A stretch of 64,000 nucleotides of DNA, taken from Neolentinus lepideus HHB14362 ss-1 (lineage: Eukaryota > Basidiomycota > Agaricomycetes > Gloeophyllales > Gloeophyllaceae). The position numbers were made by a program, and so were the translations under genes. Position 1 is the stretch's first letter. Each line of letters begins with the position of its first letter. Positions 42,509 to 48,165 of the stretch are shown in pieces. The stretch spans positions 123,978-187,977 of the forward strand of contig KV425612.1 of NCBI GenBank assembly GCA_001632425.1, in the 5' to 3' direction. The notes under the pieces are model-generated. The model was not told the origin of the DNA. It ran no database searches and saw only the letters and a program-made list of their open reading frames with translations.

Positions 42509-43113
42509 CAGCACTTAACGTTCAATAGTGTCTGTTTGCGCGCACTGTATGTTCCTGAACGCTATGTCCGATGCCTTGATTCTGCAGGAGCTTATTTAGC
42601 AAACTGTTTTCAATTGGAAGTCAGTCGACGACTCTTCGTGAGGTGCTATCCGTTGGAGCAGCAAGGGGAAGTCTGGAGCCAACAAATTAGTCTGAATCAC
42701 AACCTGATGATCCAACTGCAGTGTGTGATCACATGTAACAGGCAAAATCAAGGGTCTACACGGAGGTTGGACAAGGGTACGGTATGGTAGATTATGTGTC
42801 CAACTCCATGCCTGTTTCCAGTTTGGCTGAGAAATCACGGTTGGACAGATGTTCTGTAATATCGTGCGAGCCAGATGTGGCACTGTCGTCATGTAAGTCA
42901 TTGTATGGCGACACTCAGGAGCACAATACAGCTGCCATAGTGGAAAGTTGGAGGGCATGAACAGCCTGTAATGGGAGGCCAGCTGGCAAGGCAGAAGGAT
43001 GGGTGATAACAAAGTACGCAAATCGCTTTAGTGCCTTGGTCAAAGACGATGTTGCGAGACTCATGGTATAAATCCTTCTGACCTTACTACGGAAATACAA
43101 CCCGATGTTTTGT
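42509..43113. other. Intergenic between convergent FAD oxidoreductase and coronin
   Basis: About 600 bp. Frames reading through here are shadows or intron/3' sequence. Nothing else was recognised. Confidence 0.45.
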
Positions 43114-45033
43114 TTATTCATCCAACAGGGTCTGCGCAGCCTTTCTTGCATTCGCTCTGATCGCCTCGACCTGTAGCTCCAAGTTCCTAATCTTCTCACG
43201 AGCTTCACGGAGTTCAGACGCCAGGCGCGTGTTTTCTTCTTCCAATGCGCTCGTGTCGGCAGACTGGAGAAGTTGTGATAGTGCATGATTAAGACGTTTG
43301 CTCGCACGTCGCAGTATAAAACAATATAACTCACCTGCGATGACTGGGTACGTGAAGGCGTCACTGCAGCTGGTTGAGACTCTGGGACCTTGGCAGCAAC
43401 AGGGCTGGAGGCCTTGGCAGCAACAGGACTAGGCGGGGAGACAGGTGCAGGGGCCGGAGTAGGAGCAGGAGCGGATGCAGTCTTCGTGGGCGCGGGCGTT
43501 GGTGTCGGGAGCGAAGGTGCACTGTACGAACTTGAGGAAGTCGAACCATTCTCGAGATTGACAAGTTTAGGAGCGGCAGTTTTGCCAGAGAAGAACTCGG
43601 CGGCGCTCATGGCAGGCTCGGAGGAAGGTGCGGGAGGAAAAATGTCGGATTGGAAGGAATCGGCCTGCGTAGCAGTGAATTATGTTAGGAGTCATGCCGC
43701 TGGAGATAGGGTACACTTACCTTGCGCGGGACGATGAATGCGATGGGCTCAATGTAAGACCCTGTGATCTTGTACGCGCGGGCGATCTCGCAGTCGAAAA
43801 CGTTCAGCGCTCGCCGAGGCAGGAAACACATCCCACGCTGGGGCTCATTAGATTTGTGCTCGGCGAGAGCGTAAAGTGTGTCCGACTCCCATTCGTAGTA
43901 GCGGATGTTACCGTCGCTATTCGAGAGTTAAGCGTGACATTGGATGAGTCGATACCATTCAATAACTCACCCCTTGCCGGCTACAGAAACCGTTAATCAG
44001 GCAATGTTCTTGTGACATAAGGCTAGTTGGGCTCACCAAGGAAGAGGATGTTGTTGTCACTCCAAAATGGCATGACGATACCGGACGATTGATCAATAGT
44101 GATGGTCTTAATGTTGCCGAGCCCGCCAGTCTCCCATACACTAAGTTGGCGATCACTCATCTTGCTGAAACCTGTCGTGGCAATATTGTTGTTCTCGCCC
44201 ATCCACACCACCCTCGCGCCCTTGATACCACTGTGTCCATCCGTTACTCTGACTGCCTCACTTCCTACCCTCGCATCGAACATCCTCAGCTTTCGATCTC
44301 TGCAGGTCGTCACCAACACCGTGCCAGCGGGGTTAAACGCCATACTCTGGACGCTGTCCCCGTGACCCGTGAGCACCGACTTCGCGCTCTCGGGGTTGGC
44401 CAGGTCCCAAAGCTTCACGGTATATTCCCCAGATGCAGTCGCCAGTACGTTCTCTGCGGTGGGGTGGAACAAGACCTGCCCGATCTTGCGGGGAGAGACA
44501 TCGATCCGGAGGACAGGGTCAAAGTCACGAGGCTCCCAACCCTCTTCACCCCAACCTTCGAACGATGAAGACTCAACTTTCCAAATCATGACCTTTCCAT
44601 CTTCACCTCCAGACGCGACGGTGGAGTCGTTGTGGGGCGACCAGTCAGTATCGAGGACGGGAGCTGTGTGGCTACGGGCTAGGGGGATAATGTCCGGGAG
44701 CTTGTACGGGAAATTGGGCGTCGCCTGGAATGGAGAAGGGAGAGGTAGAATAGCAAATGCTCCGCCTCCAGATGCGTTCCAGTTTAAACTTATGTATCGC
44801 TGAAACGACGTGAATCGGGTCTGGCATATCACACGCAGACAGAATACGTACCCCTGATGCAGCGATTAGATTGGTATCCCAAGCACTGTTGGACACTTTC
44901 GCATTTTCAATACCATACTCTTTCTTCCCGATCTGTCCGAAGACGTGGCTTGTGCATGCATCGGTATTTTGATACGTCCTGATAATGCAGAATGCACTCA
45001 CCGGTACTTCGAAGGGCGTACGAAACGAGACAT
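43114..45033 (-). CDS. CRN1: Coronin
   Basis: An actin-binding WD40 protein that regulates Arp2/3 and actin patches. Start 45033 gives the family signature MSRFVRPSKYR and, after a splice, HVFGQIGKKEYGIENAKVS. The beta-propeller follows with SHTAPVLDTDWSPHNDSTVA, EDGKVMIWKV, GQVLFHPTAENVLATAS, EYTVKLWDL, GHGDSVQSMAFNPAGTVLVT, DRKLRMFDARV and RQLSVWETGGLGNIKTI. The conserved C-terminal extension reads CFLPRRALNVFDCEIARAYK. A Ser/Pro/Ala-rich linker follows (PTPAPTKTASAPAPTPAPAP), then a C-terminal coiled coil (ALEEENTRLASELREAREKI to AQTLLDE), stop 43116-43114. Several small introns are present. The start lies only 164 bp from a transposon end. Confidence 0.92.
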
Positions 45034-45189
45034 TGCTATAGCCAGAAATTCGGGATTGTACCCTGTACCTATCCCACAAAAAAAGGTCCTAAAATCCACC
45101 AGTTACGATGCGATCCAGCAGTGGTCTGTAAGAGTTGGGCAGTGTGTTGCAACAGCAGTAACGGACTTCGGATGCAACAATGATCGGAG

Positions 45190-45196
45190 TCTCAAC
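45190..45196 (+). repeat. Target-site duplication, left copy
   Basis: TCTCAAC directly precedes the left terminal inverted repeat and is repeated exactly at 48159-48165 after the right one. Confidence 0.75.
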
Positions 45197-45501
45197 CCCA
45201 GTCAAAACCGGTGATTTTACCACCATTTGTAAAACTTTGTAAAACTTTATCACCTTTGTATCCCTTTACTTCCCAATAAATGGCTGATTACCGTACAAGG
45301 ACACCGCCACGTGTCCCAATTTGGATGCCAAGCAACTAAGTCGAGCTCCCATCATCGAACGAGTATTATGAAGTACGCAACACGTTCTCGCAGCACGCCA
45401 AAGTCTCGTGTTCAGGTTAGTAATGATAGTATTCGTCTGCTCCCCGTCTCGTACATGTACTGCACCTCTTTGCTTCATTCAAACTCTTCTCTAATCAACA
45501 T

Positions 45502-45669
45502 ATGTTTCGAAACGAGCAAGGAAAAATATTTTGTGACTGCACCGAGCGCTGCGAAGGCGGCAAGTTGGTCTCCGACAGAACCTATCGTGAACATAAGAAA
45601 TTCCGTACAGCCGCCAACCATGCCCGAGCGTGGGAACCATATGGAAACGCGTCTCTCCCGTCATCCTGA
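45502..45669 (+). pseudogene. Transposase-like N-terminal Cys/His mini-ORF
   Basis: A 55-residue frame with IFCDCTERCEGGKLVSDRTY followed by REHKKFR. The CxC...C...VS.RTY..H pattern resembles the Cys/His segment at the start of large transposases (Plavaka/KDZ type) common in Agaricomycetes; this is family knowledge from pattern, not from a search. The frame stops at 45669 and no catalytic core follows, so it is a remnant of the element's own transposase or a recruited DNA-binding segment. Confidence 0.5.
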
Positions 45670-45721
45670 ATACTCCTACTTCCATATGTCTTGCCTTGCT
45701 TTCCTCCTTTCCCACTACCAG

Positions 45722-46896
45722 CTTTATTCTTGGTCCGAAATCTCTCCTATCTCTTTGAACGAGCTCAATAAAACGGAACGCAAATTCTTAATGGGCGTCG
45801 ATTTCGACTTATATGTTGACAAGAGCACGTACGAATCGTGGCTCAACTTGTTGAAGGGGCTGGTGATGGCAAAGGAGAAGGACTCGCGGAGATGGCATAG
45901 GGGACGCGGGAAGGATGTGAGGGTAATTGGACGGGTGGTGCCAGTGACGGTGTACAGGCCGACTACGCGTTGTAGGCAGGAGGAGAATGGTGATACGAGC
46001 AGGCGGCATCGCGCAAGGTCGACGTCCCCTGTGTCGCGTGCGGCTGTTTACCCCAATTCCTCTTACCACCACTTCACCTTCGCGCTTCCTCCCCTACCCT
46101 CGACCACTCCTCGTTCCGTCTCATCACATCGGTATCCTTCTCCTGAGAAGGACTACTTCGACTCTCCCGTCTCTCCCACATCTTATCCCGGTGAGAAGCG
46201 CTCTGCTAATACGGCCTTCTCGTGTACATCCGGCTCGTACGATACATCTTTGACCCCGCCTCGACCCGCGAAGCGTCCCACGAGTATGCACGGCCTCACT
46301 CTAGAGATTCCGGAGTGTACCGTGCGGTCTCGAGCAGATCAGACGGAGTTCCTCAGGTGAGTAGTATGCGCATATAGTCATGTGTTCTAACATATTGATA
46401 TGTTCTGCGCTACAGAGTCTCTACTACTACTCGCTTACTTGTTCTCCAACGGGTAAAGACGACCCGGCGAATGCGCGCTGCGGCAAGGCTAAGTTGCGCG
46501 TTCACCACGCACCTGCACCGGCGTCGAACTCGTATTATGCCACCTCCGAACTCGCATCGTGCCCGCAACAGACAGCAAACTCCTACCCAGGCTATCAGTA
46601 TACTCCTAGCTCGTATGGTGGGTACCAGGGCTCTCGCATCCCTGTGGTCGTACAGAGCGCGTCAGTGAGCCCGGATGTTGAAACGCTATGAGCCGACTGC
46701 GGACATGTACACGTGGTCGCGACGCACGAGCGAGCCTGGCTACGACTCGTTGGCACAGCCGTACTCGACTTCGCGGTCACCGTACGAGCGGCAGGATTAC
46801 CGCCGCCCGCAGGAAGCACCGAGGTATGTGGATAGCAAGTTGCCTGTGCCCTCAGCGCCCTTTGCGAACGCTGGTCCGCCTGGGATGCAGCTGTGA
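45722..46896 (+). pseudogene. Captured 3' fragment of a Pho80-like cyclin gene
   Basis: The fragment starts just after a polypyrimidine-AG (an intron 3' end at 45721), giving WSEISPISLNELNKTERKFL and STYESWLNLLKGLVMAK, the second half of the cyclin box of Agaricomycete Pho80/PCL-type cyclins. A Pro/Ser/Tyr-rich tail follows, a GT donor at 46357, and a further exon (LRVHHAPAPASNSYY, then after a frame change near 46680 RYEPTADMYTWSRRTSEPGY, ending GPPGMQL and stop). The first half of the cyclin box is absent and the frame is broken, so it cannot encode a working cyclin. The host source gene is not in the window. Confidence 0.7.
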
Positions 46897-46964
46897 ACCC
46901 CACCCGATCAGACGTACCTCAAGCCGCTGACGCACCTCCTCCAGTATCGCCCGCAGCAGCAGCA

Positions 46965-47545
46965 GCGATGTTCTTCATGGGCACGACGTCCATCTTCCTC
47001 AAGCTCTGCATGCCGCTCCTCCTGCGGCGCTTCGACCACCTGCGCGTGTTCGCGGTGTGCACGCTCGTGTGGCCGCTCACGTTCGCGCTGATGCCCGCGC
47101 TCAACGCCGTCGCGCGCCAGAGGCAGAGCGCGCTGCTGTGGGCAGGGATACGGCTCGTGCTGGTCATGAGCCGCGTCGGGACGATGGTGTTCTCGTGAGT
47201 GCCGGTGTCCGCATGTCTCTGTGTGTATAATGACGTGTTCGTCCTGGCAGGATTGTGATGATCCTCGTGCGCGAGACCGCGCCCGGCCCCGCGTCGCTGG
47301 GGACGACGAACGTCCGCCTTCGGGTCGCTCAGCGGGGTTGTTATCAGGTGTGCTCTGGTCCCACTGCCCCGTCCAGCTCACGTGACATTGATGCATACAG
47401 CTCGCTGTTCGCTGTGTCGGCGAGCAAACACCTCCTATGGGAGGAAAGCCGCCGAGGCTGCTGGTGTAAGTACATGTCATTCTATTTGAGCATTGGCTGA
47501 CATGTAATCACTTAGAGGACATGGAAGCCGAGGGCAAGGAGGTCC
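46965..47545 (+). pseudogene. Captured 3' fragment of an MFS transporter gene
   Basis: Begins about 70 bp after the cyclin stop with MFFMGTTSIFLKLCMPLLLR, then VFAVCTLVWPLTFALMPALN and LVLVMSRVGTMVFS. A GT-AG intron (47195-47251) follows, then IVMILVRETAPGPASLGTTN and SSLFAVSASKHLLW. This matches the C-terminal half of a fungal MFS drug/sugar-type transporter. The text is broken by a frameshift near 47445 and lacks the first half. Another intron-like GT is kept near 47467. It is a passenger fragment of the surrounding transposon. Confidence 0.65.
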
Positions 47546-47684
47546 GGTAACGTATAGGATTGCACCAGGTAAGTGTGCGAGACTTATGTTTTCTCGTACT
47601 AATGACTTTATTTCGTACAGTGGAGTAGCTTTCTTGGGAACAGTATCAATGGCTGTATCGACATCATGGCATATGGGGTGGACG

Positions 47685-47826
47685 GAGGGGCATATGGGGG
47701 AATGGGAGGAGAGGAGGGGGATCGGGGGGAAGGGGGACGGGAGGGGAGGGAGGAGAGGTAGGGGAGGAGGGGGGGAGGGAGACTGGTTGGGATTGGGCGG
47801 GATCGGGCGGGATTGGGGGGGAGTAG
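47685..47826 (+). repeat. G-rich purine tract
   Basis: About 140 bases that are almost purely G and A with many GGGG runs. It lies inside the transposon near its right end. G-quadruplex or triplex formation is possible from composition. Confidence 0.8.
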
Positions 47827-48158
47827 TATAGGGACTCGAAGGCAGTGATAAGCAAGGTTATTAGAGTACAATGGTCTGTAATGTATCTTAAAGTGGGACA
47901 ATGGCATACAATGCAGTGTTATAGCATTTACTATTTGTCTTAAGGGAGCCATTGAGGTCCATTAAAATCTATTAAGGTTGATTACAGTGCTATGCTACTT
48001 GACATACTCGATCGGGGCAAACACTGAGAATGGGTGGCATTAGCCGTGGCACCCTTTCTCTGGCAGATTCCCTTTGCGAGCCTTTGCTAAAGCTGTAAAG
48101 GGTGGGAAATGGTCAGAAAGGGTGGCAAAGGGTGGCAAAGTCACCGGTTTTGACTGGG

Positions 48159-48165
48159 TCTCAAC
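48159..48165 (+). repeat. Target-site duplication, right copy
   Basis: TCTCAAC immediately after the right terminal inverted repeat, identical to 45190-45196. Confidence 0.75.

Follow-up and report, generated by a model that had tools for sequence, protein, structure and literature searches.

How did pieces of two unrelated protein-coding genes come to lie end to end inside a mobile element, and what kind of element carries them? The question is raised by a locus in the window analysed here, a 64,000-nucleotide stretch of contig KV425612.1 of Neolentinus lepideus HHB14362 ss-1, in which terminal inverted repeats (TIRs) and target-site duplications (TSDs) enclose parts of two genes, one for a Pho80-type cyclin and one for an MFS transporter. 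Judged by its sequence, this is a TIR/TSD-bounded DNA transposon that captured intron-bearing genomic pieces of two unrelated host genes, as had been predicted; both its boundaries and the recovery of intact donor genes on contigs C28 and C47 of the same genome support that claim. Very probably the element arose by deletion from a cut-and-paste DNA transposon and is itself non-autonomous and gene-carrying.

An exact search found CCCAGTCAAAACCGGTGA twice in the window, in inverted orientation, which agrees with the perfect 18-bp TIR originally predicted, and with up to three mismatches no further match was found in the window beyond these two ends (shuffled sequences gave a mean of 0.07). The ends are identical at 18 of 18, 30 of 33 and 46 of 61 positions, consistent with the claimed imperfect extension to about 30 bp, and the exact 7-bp duplications as well as the length of 2962 bp (45197-48158) were confirmed. 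The window copy is termed C62 after its contig, related copies are named likewise, and element positions count from 45197. The features are as follows, in window coordinates.

45190-45196, unstranded: left 7-bp TSD TCTCAAC, which fits NNTNANN
45197-45214, + strand: 5' TIR, perfect over 18 bp and imperfect as far as about 45257
45502-45624, + strand: remnant of a transposase N-terminal exon, Cys/His-rich, 95% over 41 amino acids (aa) to the C68 copy
45620-46665, + strand: public gene model NEOLEDRAFT_1140054 (P0134, 318 aa), in blocks 45620-46357 and 46414-46665
45625-45626, unstranded: deletion junction relative to the C68 copy (element position 429/430), 5.9 kb of C68 being absent
45729-46964, + strand: captured piece of the Pho80-type cyclin gene, starting 20 bases into donor exon 3 and reaching almost to the stop codon
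46894-46896, + strand: TGA common to the C60, C62 and C68 copies, where the donor has TAC
46965-47436, + strand: captured 3' piece of the MFS transporter gene, from 13 bases inside donor exon 7, with introns 7 and 8 kept
47437-47760, + strand: segment for which no other match was found in the genome, with two intron-like stretches
47761-48140, + strand: element 3' region common to the C45 and C60 copies, and to C71 from about 47918 (N gap before)
48141-48158, - strand: 3' TIR, perfect over 18 bp, with an imperfect part from about 48098
48159-48165, unstranded: right 7-bp TSD TCTCAAC

The predicted cyclin and MFS identities of the inner fragments were borne out by the donors. Besides the C60 and C68 copies, element positions 533-1768 matched C28 only, at 95%, 93% and 90% in three blocks; the C28 gene has a cyclin reading open through three exons, its exons give a Pfam Cyclin match (with Cyclin_N below the cut-off), and an orthologue from Heliocybe aligns to it over its whole length. 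Element positions 1769-2240 match C47 at 90%, a match that in the C60 copy extends to just beyond the stop codon, and the intact C47 gene splices to a nine-exon MFS protein whose N-terminal 287 residues match MFS_1 (1.4e-24). The cyclin piece had been thought to start at an intron 3' splice site; instead, donor exon 3 begins at L039:3208 and the match at L039:3228, and the MFS piece similarly begins at L040:3147 in an exon that starts at L040:3134. Nor are the fragments separated by about 70 bp, as first described: their donor matches abut at element position 1768/1769 (window 46964/46965). An intron is indeed present in the MFS piece, although two donor introns are kept there and not one; with that of the cyclin piece (window about 46358-46413), three donor introns are retained in C62. 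Capture was therefore from DNA, as the original prediction had held, and the intron-less state of a retrogene copied from RNA is not what is found. Deletions of 160 bp (46316/46317) and 38 bp (near 46676) interrupt the cyclin piece. The segment of about 324 bp at window 47437-47760, whose two intron-like stretches of about 50 bp were seen by eye, is possibly a third captured gene piece with a donor lost or unassembled. A G-rich run of short GGGAGG/GGGATTGGG-type repeats is present at window 47675-47820, near the element 3' part.

Searched across the genome, the exact 18-mer occurs on C45, C60, C62, C68 and C71, and on all of these except C68 it forms the expected inverted pairs with exact 7-bp duplications. 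C68 keeps the 5' end and cargo and has lost the 3' end at element position 2220; the remaining copies are these.

C45 copy: 2437 bp, TSD CTTCAAG, N gap of 1916 bases
C60 copy: 1855 bp, TSD GGTCAAC
C71 copy: 1864 bp, TSD CCTAAAG, N gap of 1440 bases

Common to C60, C62 and C68 are the junction at 1768/1769 (in C60 within two bases), the 38-bp deletion and the TGA, and one junction together with one deletion in three copies implies a single capture followed by amplification. The 160-bp cyclin deletion was seen in C62 only, the region being absent from C60. With gaps left out, C62 and C68 are 98% identical, C60 is 95-96% identical to both, and the copies are 87-95% identical to the donors. The captured cyclin exon agrees with its N. 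lepideus donor at 91-94% of protein residues and the donor with the Heliocybe orthologue at 84%; since the captured exon is the nearer of the two to the donor, these comparisons suggest that capture postdates the split from Heliocybe. The C60 copy shows an excess of transitions at CpG sites, both in the cyclin piece (23 of 118 CpG sites against 13 of 187 other C/G) and in the MFS piece (22 of 149 against 4 of 243). The excess is weaker in C62 (20/257 against 22/471 for cyclin and 6/117 against 1/182 for MFS) and in C68 (22/278 against 19/544 and 5/118 against 3/182), and methylated cytosine would explain it.

The C68 copy holds, at the C62 junction 429/430, 5.9 kb with transposase pieces on the cargo strand, comprising an N-terminal exon and stretches that match residues 121-418, 403-498 and 839-875 of a C9 protein. 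A high-copy repeat (about L041:2600-3944) breaks into these transposase pieces, and a second repeat comes after them (about L041:5054-7000); both have copies elsewhere. The former, of about 1.3 kb and nested in the broken transposase, has dozens of genome matches. A tRNA-like sequence, possibly from a tRNA-derived SINE, was also observed inside C68 (L041:1190-1264), in surroundings that match C14 at 90%. The earlier account of the window copy, which recorded no transposase remnant, had overlooked the first exon at 45502-45624; within a set of 120 proteins this exon matches the N-termini of the Transposase_21 homologs P0111, P0080, P0049 and P0101 (E about 1e-6). Its frame is common to C62 and C68 up to the breakpoint and in C68 runs through it, aligning weakly beyond with other transposases (P0101 residues 1-52; three loci, residues 11-60, E about 1e-3), and C60 keeps a stretch 84% like L041:4936-5055 that C62 lacks. 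On the strength of this continuous frame and of the C68-like interior stretch kept in C60, C68 most likely holds the older layout, C62 and C60 being separate deletion derivatives.

Exact 7-bp TSDs were found in all nine copies of the family, subfamilies included, for which both ends were located, and in five of them (C45, C71, C22, C48 and C9) both neighbouring bases rule out an 8-bp reading. Among the first 22 sites, position 3 was T in all and position 5 was A in 20, the expectation for the pair being 5.7% (P=3e-23); single-ended sites alone had the T/A pair in 14 of 16 cases, and when ten further sites were added, weak ones counted, the values were 31/32 for T and 26/32 for A. The resulting motif, NNTNANN, is symmetric about its middle base, as would be expected for a two-fold enzyme complex. 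Read from these sites, insertion would duplicate 7 bp at NNTNANN.

The TIRs of the family are of the type CCCAGTSARAAYCG. A second subfamily, with the TIR CCCAGTCAAAATCGACAAGATAGC, includes two 1770-bp copies with exact 7-bp TSDs that hold the transposase start, as well as members on C9 and C59 in which an open frame of 882 aa lies 519 bp inside the TIR; the latter run into contig ends, and overlap with a third copy gives a full length of about 7.7 kb. Two further TIR subfamilies are represented by three elements.

C6:658377-666284: 7908 bp, TSD CATGATG, transposase match with internal stops
C32:291448-299735: 8288 bp, TSD TCTCAGA, transposase match with internal stops, extra TIR beside an N stretch
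C9:173397-174815: 1419 bp, TSD GCTCAGC

In the diverged subfamilies (C9/C59, C31, C108, C68) and inside the TSD-flanked C6 and C32 elements, the transposase lies about 0.5-1.1 kb inside the TIR and reads inward. A Pfam scan (E 0.01) of 56 transposase homologs detected PF02992 (Transposase_21) in 55, DUF4218 in four and a hAT domain in none. Residues D, H(3)H and E are invariant and C(3)C is also present; the former may be equated with the motifs of the CMCT clade considered below. The predicted fold of the Heliocybe homolog P0001 resembles those of RAG1, the enzyme behind human antibody genes, and Transib (Foldseek), although the match is a distant one. On this evidence, the element's enzyme appears to belong with the CACTA/TRC-like Transposase_21 proteins and to have a predicted fold like those of RAG1 and Transib, which places the element in a transposon class that the original prediction had left open.

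Taken together, a transposase-bearing parent (TIR - transposase - TIR) would have acquired the cyclin and MFS genomic pieces beside its transposase, probably by gap repair with template switching. At least three copies hold the joined cargo, with its one junction and the 38-bp deletion in common; by comparison, C62 and C60 lack the transposase owing to different internal deletions, whereas C68 keeps a broken one and has lost its 3' end. The derivatives would have been moved in trans by an intact enzyme like that of the 882-aa C9/C59 open frames, which lie behind a related TIR; with insertion at the duplicated motif as read from the sites, the family would work like CACTA/TRC/Transib elements, with a 7-bp stagger.

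Several observations weigh against this proposal. It is built on comparison of sequences and leaves the segment at 47437-47760 unaccounted for by the capture of cyclin and MFS pieces. The cargo of C45 and C71 is unreadable, N gaps occupying its place, and C68 is without a 3' TIR; an 8-bp TSD would be compatible with one neighbouring base in C60, C62, C32 and C6. No internal TIR relic was found in the element at up to six mismatches, except for one weak match at element position 2601. As for the enzyme, the second TIRs of the 882-aa C9/C59 copies are unseen, both copies reaching contig ends, and the C6 (63%) and C32 (47%) transposase matches are only related, with stop codons inside. The Transposase_21 hit of the C9 protein itself (E=9e-5) falls below the curated cut-off, and the Foldseek TM-scores are low (0.34 by query and 0.46 by target for rank 1). 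Moreover, the protein modelled was the 56% identical P0001 and not the N. lepideus enzyme; P0001 is the one homolog of the 56 with no Transposase_21 hit and lacks the stretch around the second Asp.

Whether the transposase belongs to the element at all may be questioned from two sides. The mobilising enzyme could be unrelated, for example a 7-bp hAT, with the Transposase_21 gene itself being cargo: fungal hAT7 elements make 7-bp TSDs and CACTA relatives are said to make TSDs of 2-5 bp (PMC12730594), and the enzyme has been assigned from sequence. That is nonetheless unlikely given the inward-reading position of the transposase behind the TIR in subfamily after subfamily, and the Aedes element of the TRC group, a group encoding Transposase_21, ends in CCCAGTCAAC (PMC1636069). 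Alternatively, C62 might be the ancestral form, and the transposase of C68 might have come in with another element inserted within that copy. The two repeats nested in C68, both with copies elsewhere, and the weakness of the homology across the breakpoint would fit such a history, but no TIR is visible at the 429/430 boundaries, the N-terminal frame runs through the breakpoint to align with other transposases, and C60 retains a different part of the C68-type interior; nested insertion is, in consequence, distinctly improbable.

The original prediction of a gene-shuffling element that may yield chimeric transcripts raises the possibility that the chimera is a working new gene, and public gene models have been drawn in two copies. 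NEOLEDRAFT_1140054, named a hypothetical protein, lies wholly inside the element, its two blocks aligning to the window at 100% and, with an 11-residue gap, at 95.5%, while P0124 (NEOLEDRAFT_837755) matches C68 at 100% in both blocks. Against this, the 38-bp deletion breaks the frame and is accompanied by the TGA in all three cargo copies, C62 bearing the further loss of 160 bp; without splicing, none of the three forward frames of the cyclin-MFS stretch is free of stops, and neither model has a Pfam hit at 0.001. A gene-shuffling product is unlikely from a chimeric cargo whose frame is broken, and a working gene is very doubtful indeed. As NEOLEDRAFT_1140054 illustrates, a publicly modelled gene may turn out to be transposon cargo and not a host gene. 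Finally, since pieces of host genes occur in several places, a plain segmental duplication could have come by chance to lie between matching repeats; with every one of the nine two-ended copies showing exact TIR and TSD boundaries at a common target motif, that is scarcely conceivable. A deletion derivative of a Transposase_21 transposon remains the preferred reading.

Next to the element, on the - strand at window 42915-45088, is a coronin-like gene (DUF1899 and WD40 hits). The gene has its 5' side turned to the element, and visual inspection places the end of its N-terminal coding part about 0.2 kb away from the insertion, so that its promoter or 5' UTR may be where the element sits. The genome's other matches to this gene are distant WD40 proteins. 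A separate short repeat family (L013:4030-4550, L014:4213-4907 and L015:4286-4477) contains a TCCCGGTCAAAAT-like motif repeated several times internally.

Published accounts already document gene capture in fungi by hAT and Helitron DNA transposons (PMC3538342, PMC6710886, PMC4289320); these sources, like the others cited here, are drawn on in part, and comparisons are limited to those parts. Relative to the published clade descriptions, the 7-bp-TSD vehicle looks new, set apart by description and with Repbase aside. The locus records a basidiomycete gene capture stepwise: both donors survive intact, one copy bears a transposase beside the same cargo, and two further copies are deletion derivatives. 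On balance, we lean modestly towards the view that Agaricomycete genomes hold an undescribed RAG/Transib/CACTA-fold (TRC-like) lineage with CCCAGTSARAAYCG ends that cuts with a 7-bp stagger at the symmetric NNTNANN, one member of which captured two host gene pieces and left derivatives that still carry gene models mistaken for host genes.

The plant Pack-TYPE elements (Pack-CACTA, Pack-MULE) are likewise non-autonomous and TIR/TSD-bounded, with captured gene fragments (PMC8903248), and C62 shares with them its TIRs and TSD, its fragments of coding genes and the lack of a functional transposase, an N-terminal exon remnant alone being left. It differs in its fungal host, in having CCCAGTC and not CACTA termini, in a 7-bp TSD that is not of CACTA length, in a transposase-bearing sister copy (C68) with the same cargo, and in the lack of internal TIR relics such as might remain after capture by tandem insertion and re-mobilisation. 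Histone H3 genes were similarly captured by TIR transposons of the hAT type in Pyrenophora and Pseudocercospora (PMC3538342, PMC6710886), the Pyrenophora element having a long, likely autonomous form and a short one (PMC3538342). Those systems involve a hAT enzyme and a single gene and reach tens to hundreds of copies, whereas the basidiomycete element has two gene pieces, few copies and a CACTA/TRC-like enzyme. The 7-bp TSD is that of hAT7 elements, whereas the Pfam scan of the 56 transposase homologs shows no hAT domain. Gene-carrying Helitrons of Pleurotus also capture genes in a basidiomycete but are rolling-circle elements, in contrast to the TIRs and TSDs found here (PMC4289320).

Closest in their ends are the TRC elements of the CACTA superfamily (SmTRC1 and its Aedes and Tribolium relatives), which share Transposase_21 and CCC-starting TIRs with the present family and have direct repeats of 2 bp instead of 7 bp (PMC1636069). 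The CMCT clade (EnSpm/CACTA, Plavaka, ESTA and Transib/RAG) has TSDs of 2-5 bp and mostly CA..TG ends; its D, H(3)H and E residues and RAG1/Transib-like predicted fold appear to recur here, together with C(3)C for C(2)C, and the CCCAGTC ends and 7-bp TSDs depart from it, as they do from the TGT..ACA or CATCA..TGATG termini and 2-3-bp TSDs of Plavaka A/B (PMC12730594). The Transposase_21 (Tnp2) domain places the homologs with CACTA/EnSpm, although CCC..GGG ends with 7-bp TSDs are found in place of 5'-CA..TG-3' termini and 2-5-bp TSDs. The P0001 model has a catalytic core fold like that of Transib/RAG, as a distant match with low TM-scores. Transib/RAG elements make TSDs of 5 bp, compared with 7 bp here. 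TSD length serves in transposon classification and depends on how far apart an enzyme makes its two cuts; if true, 7-bp TSDs made by a RAG1/Transib-like enzyme would widen the known range of that clade.
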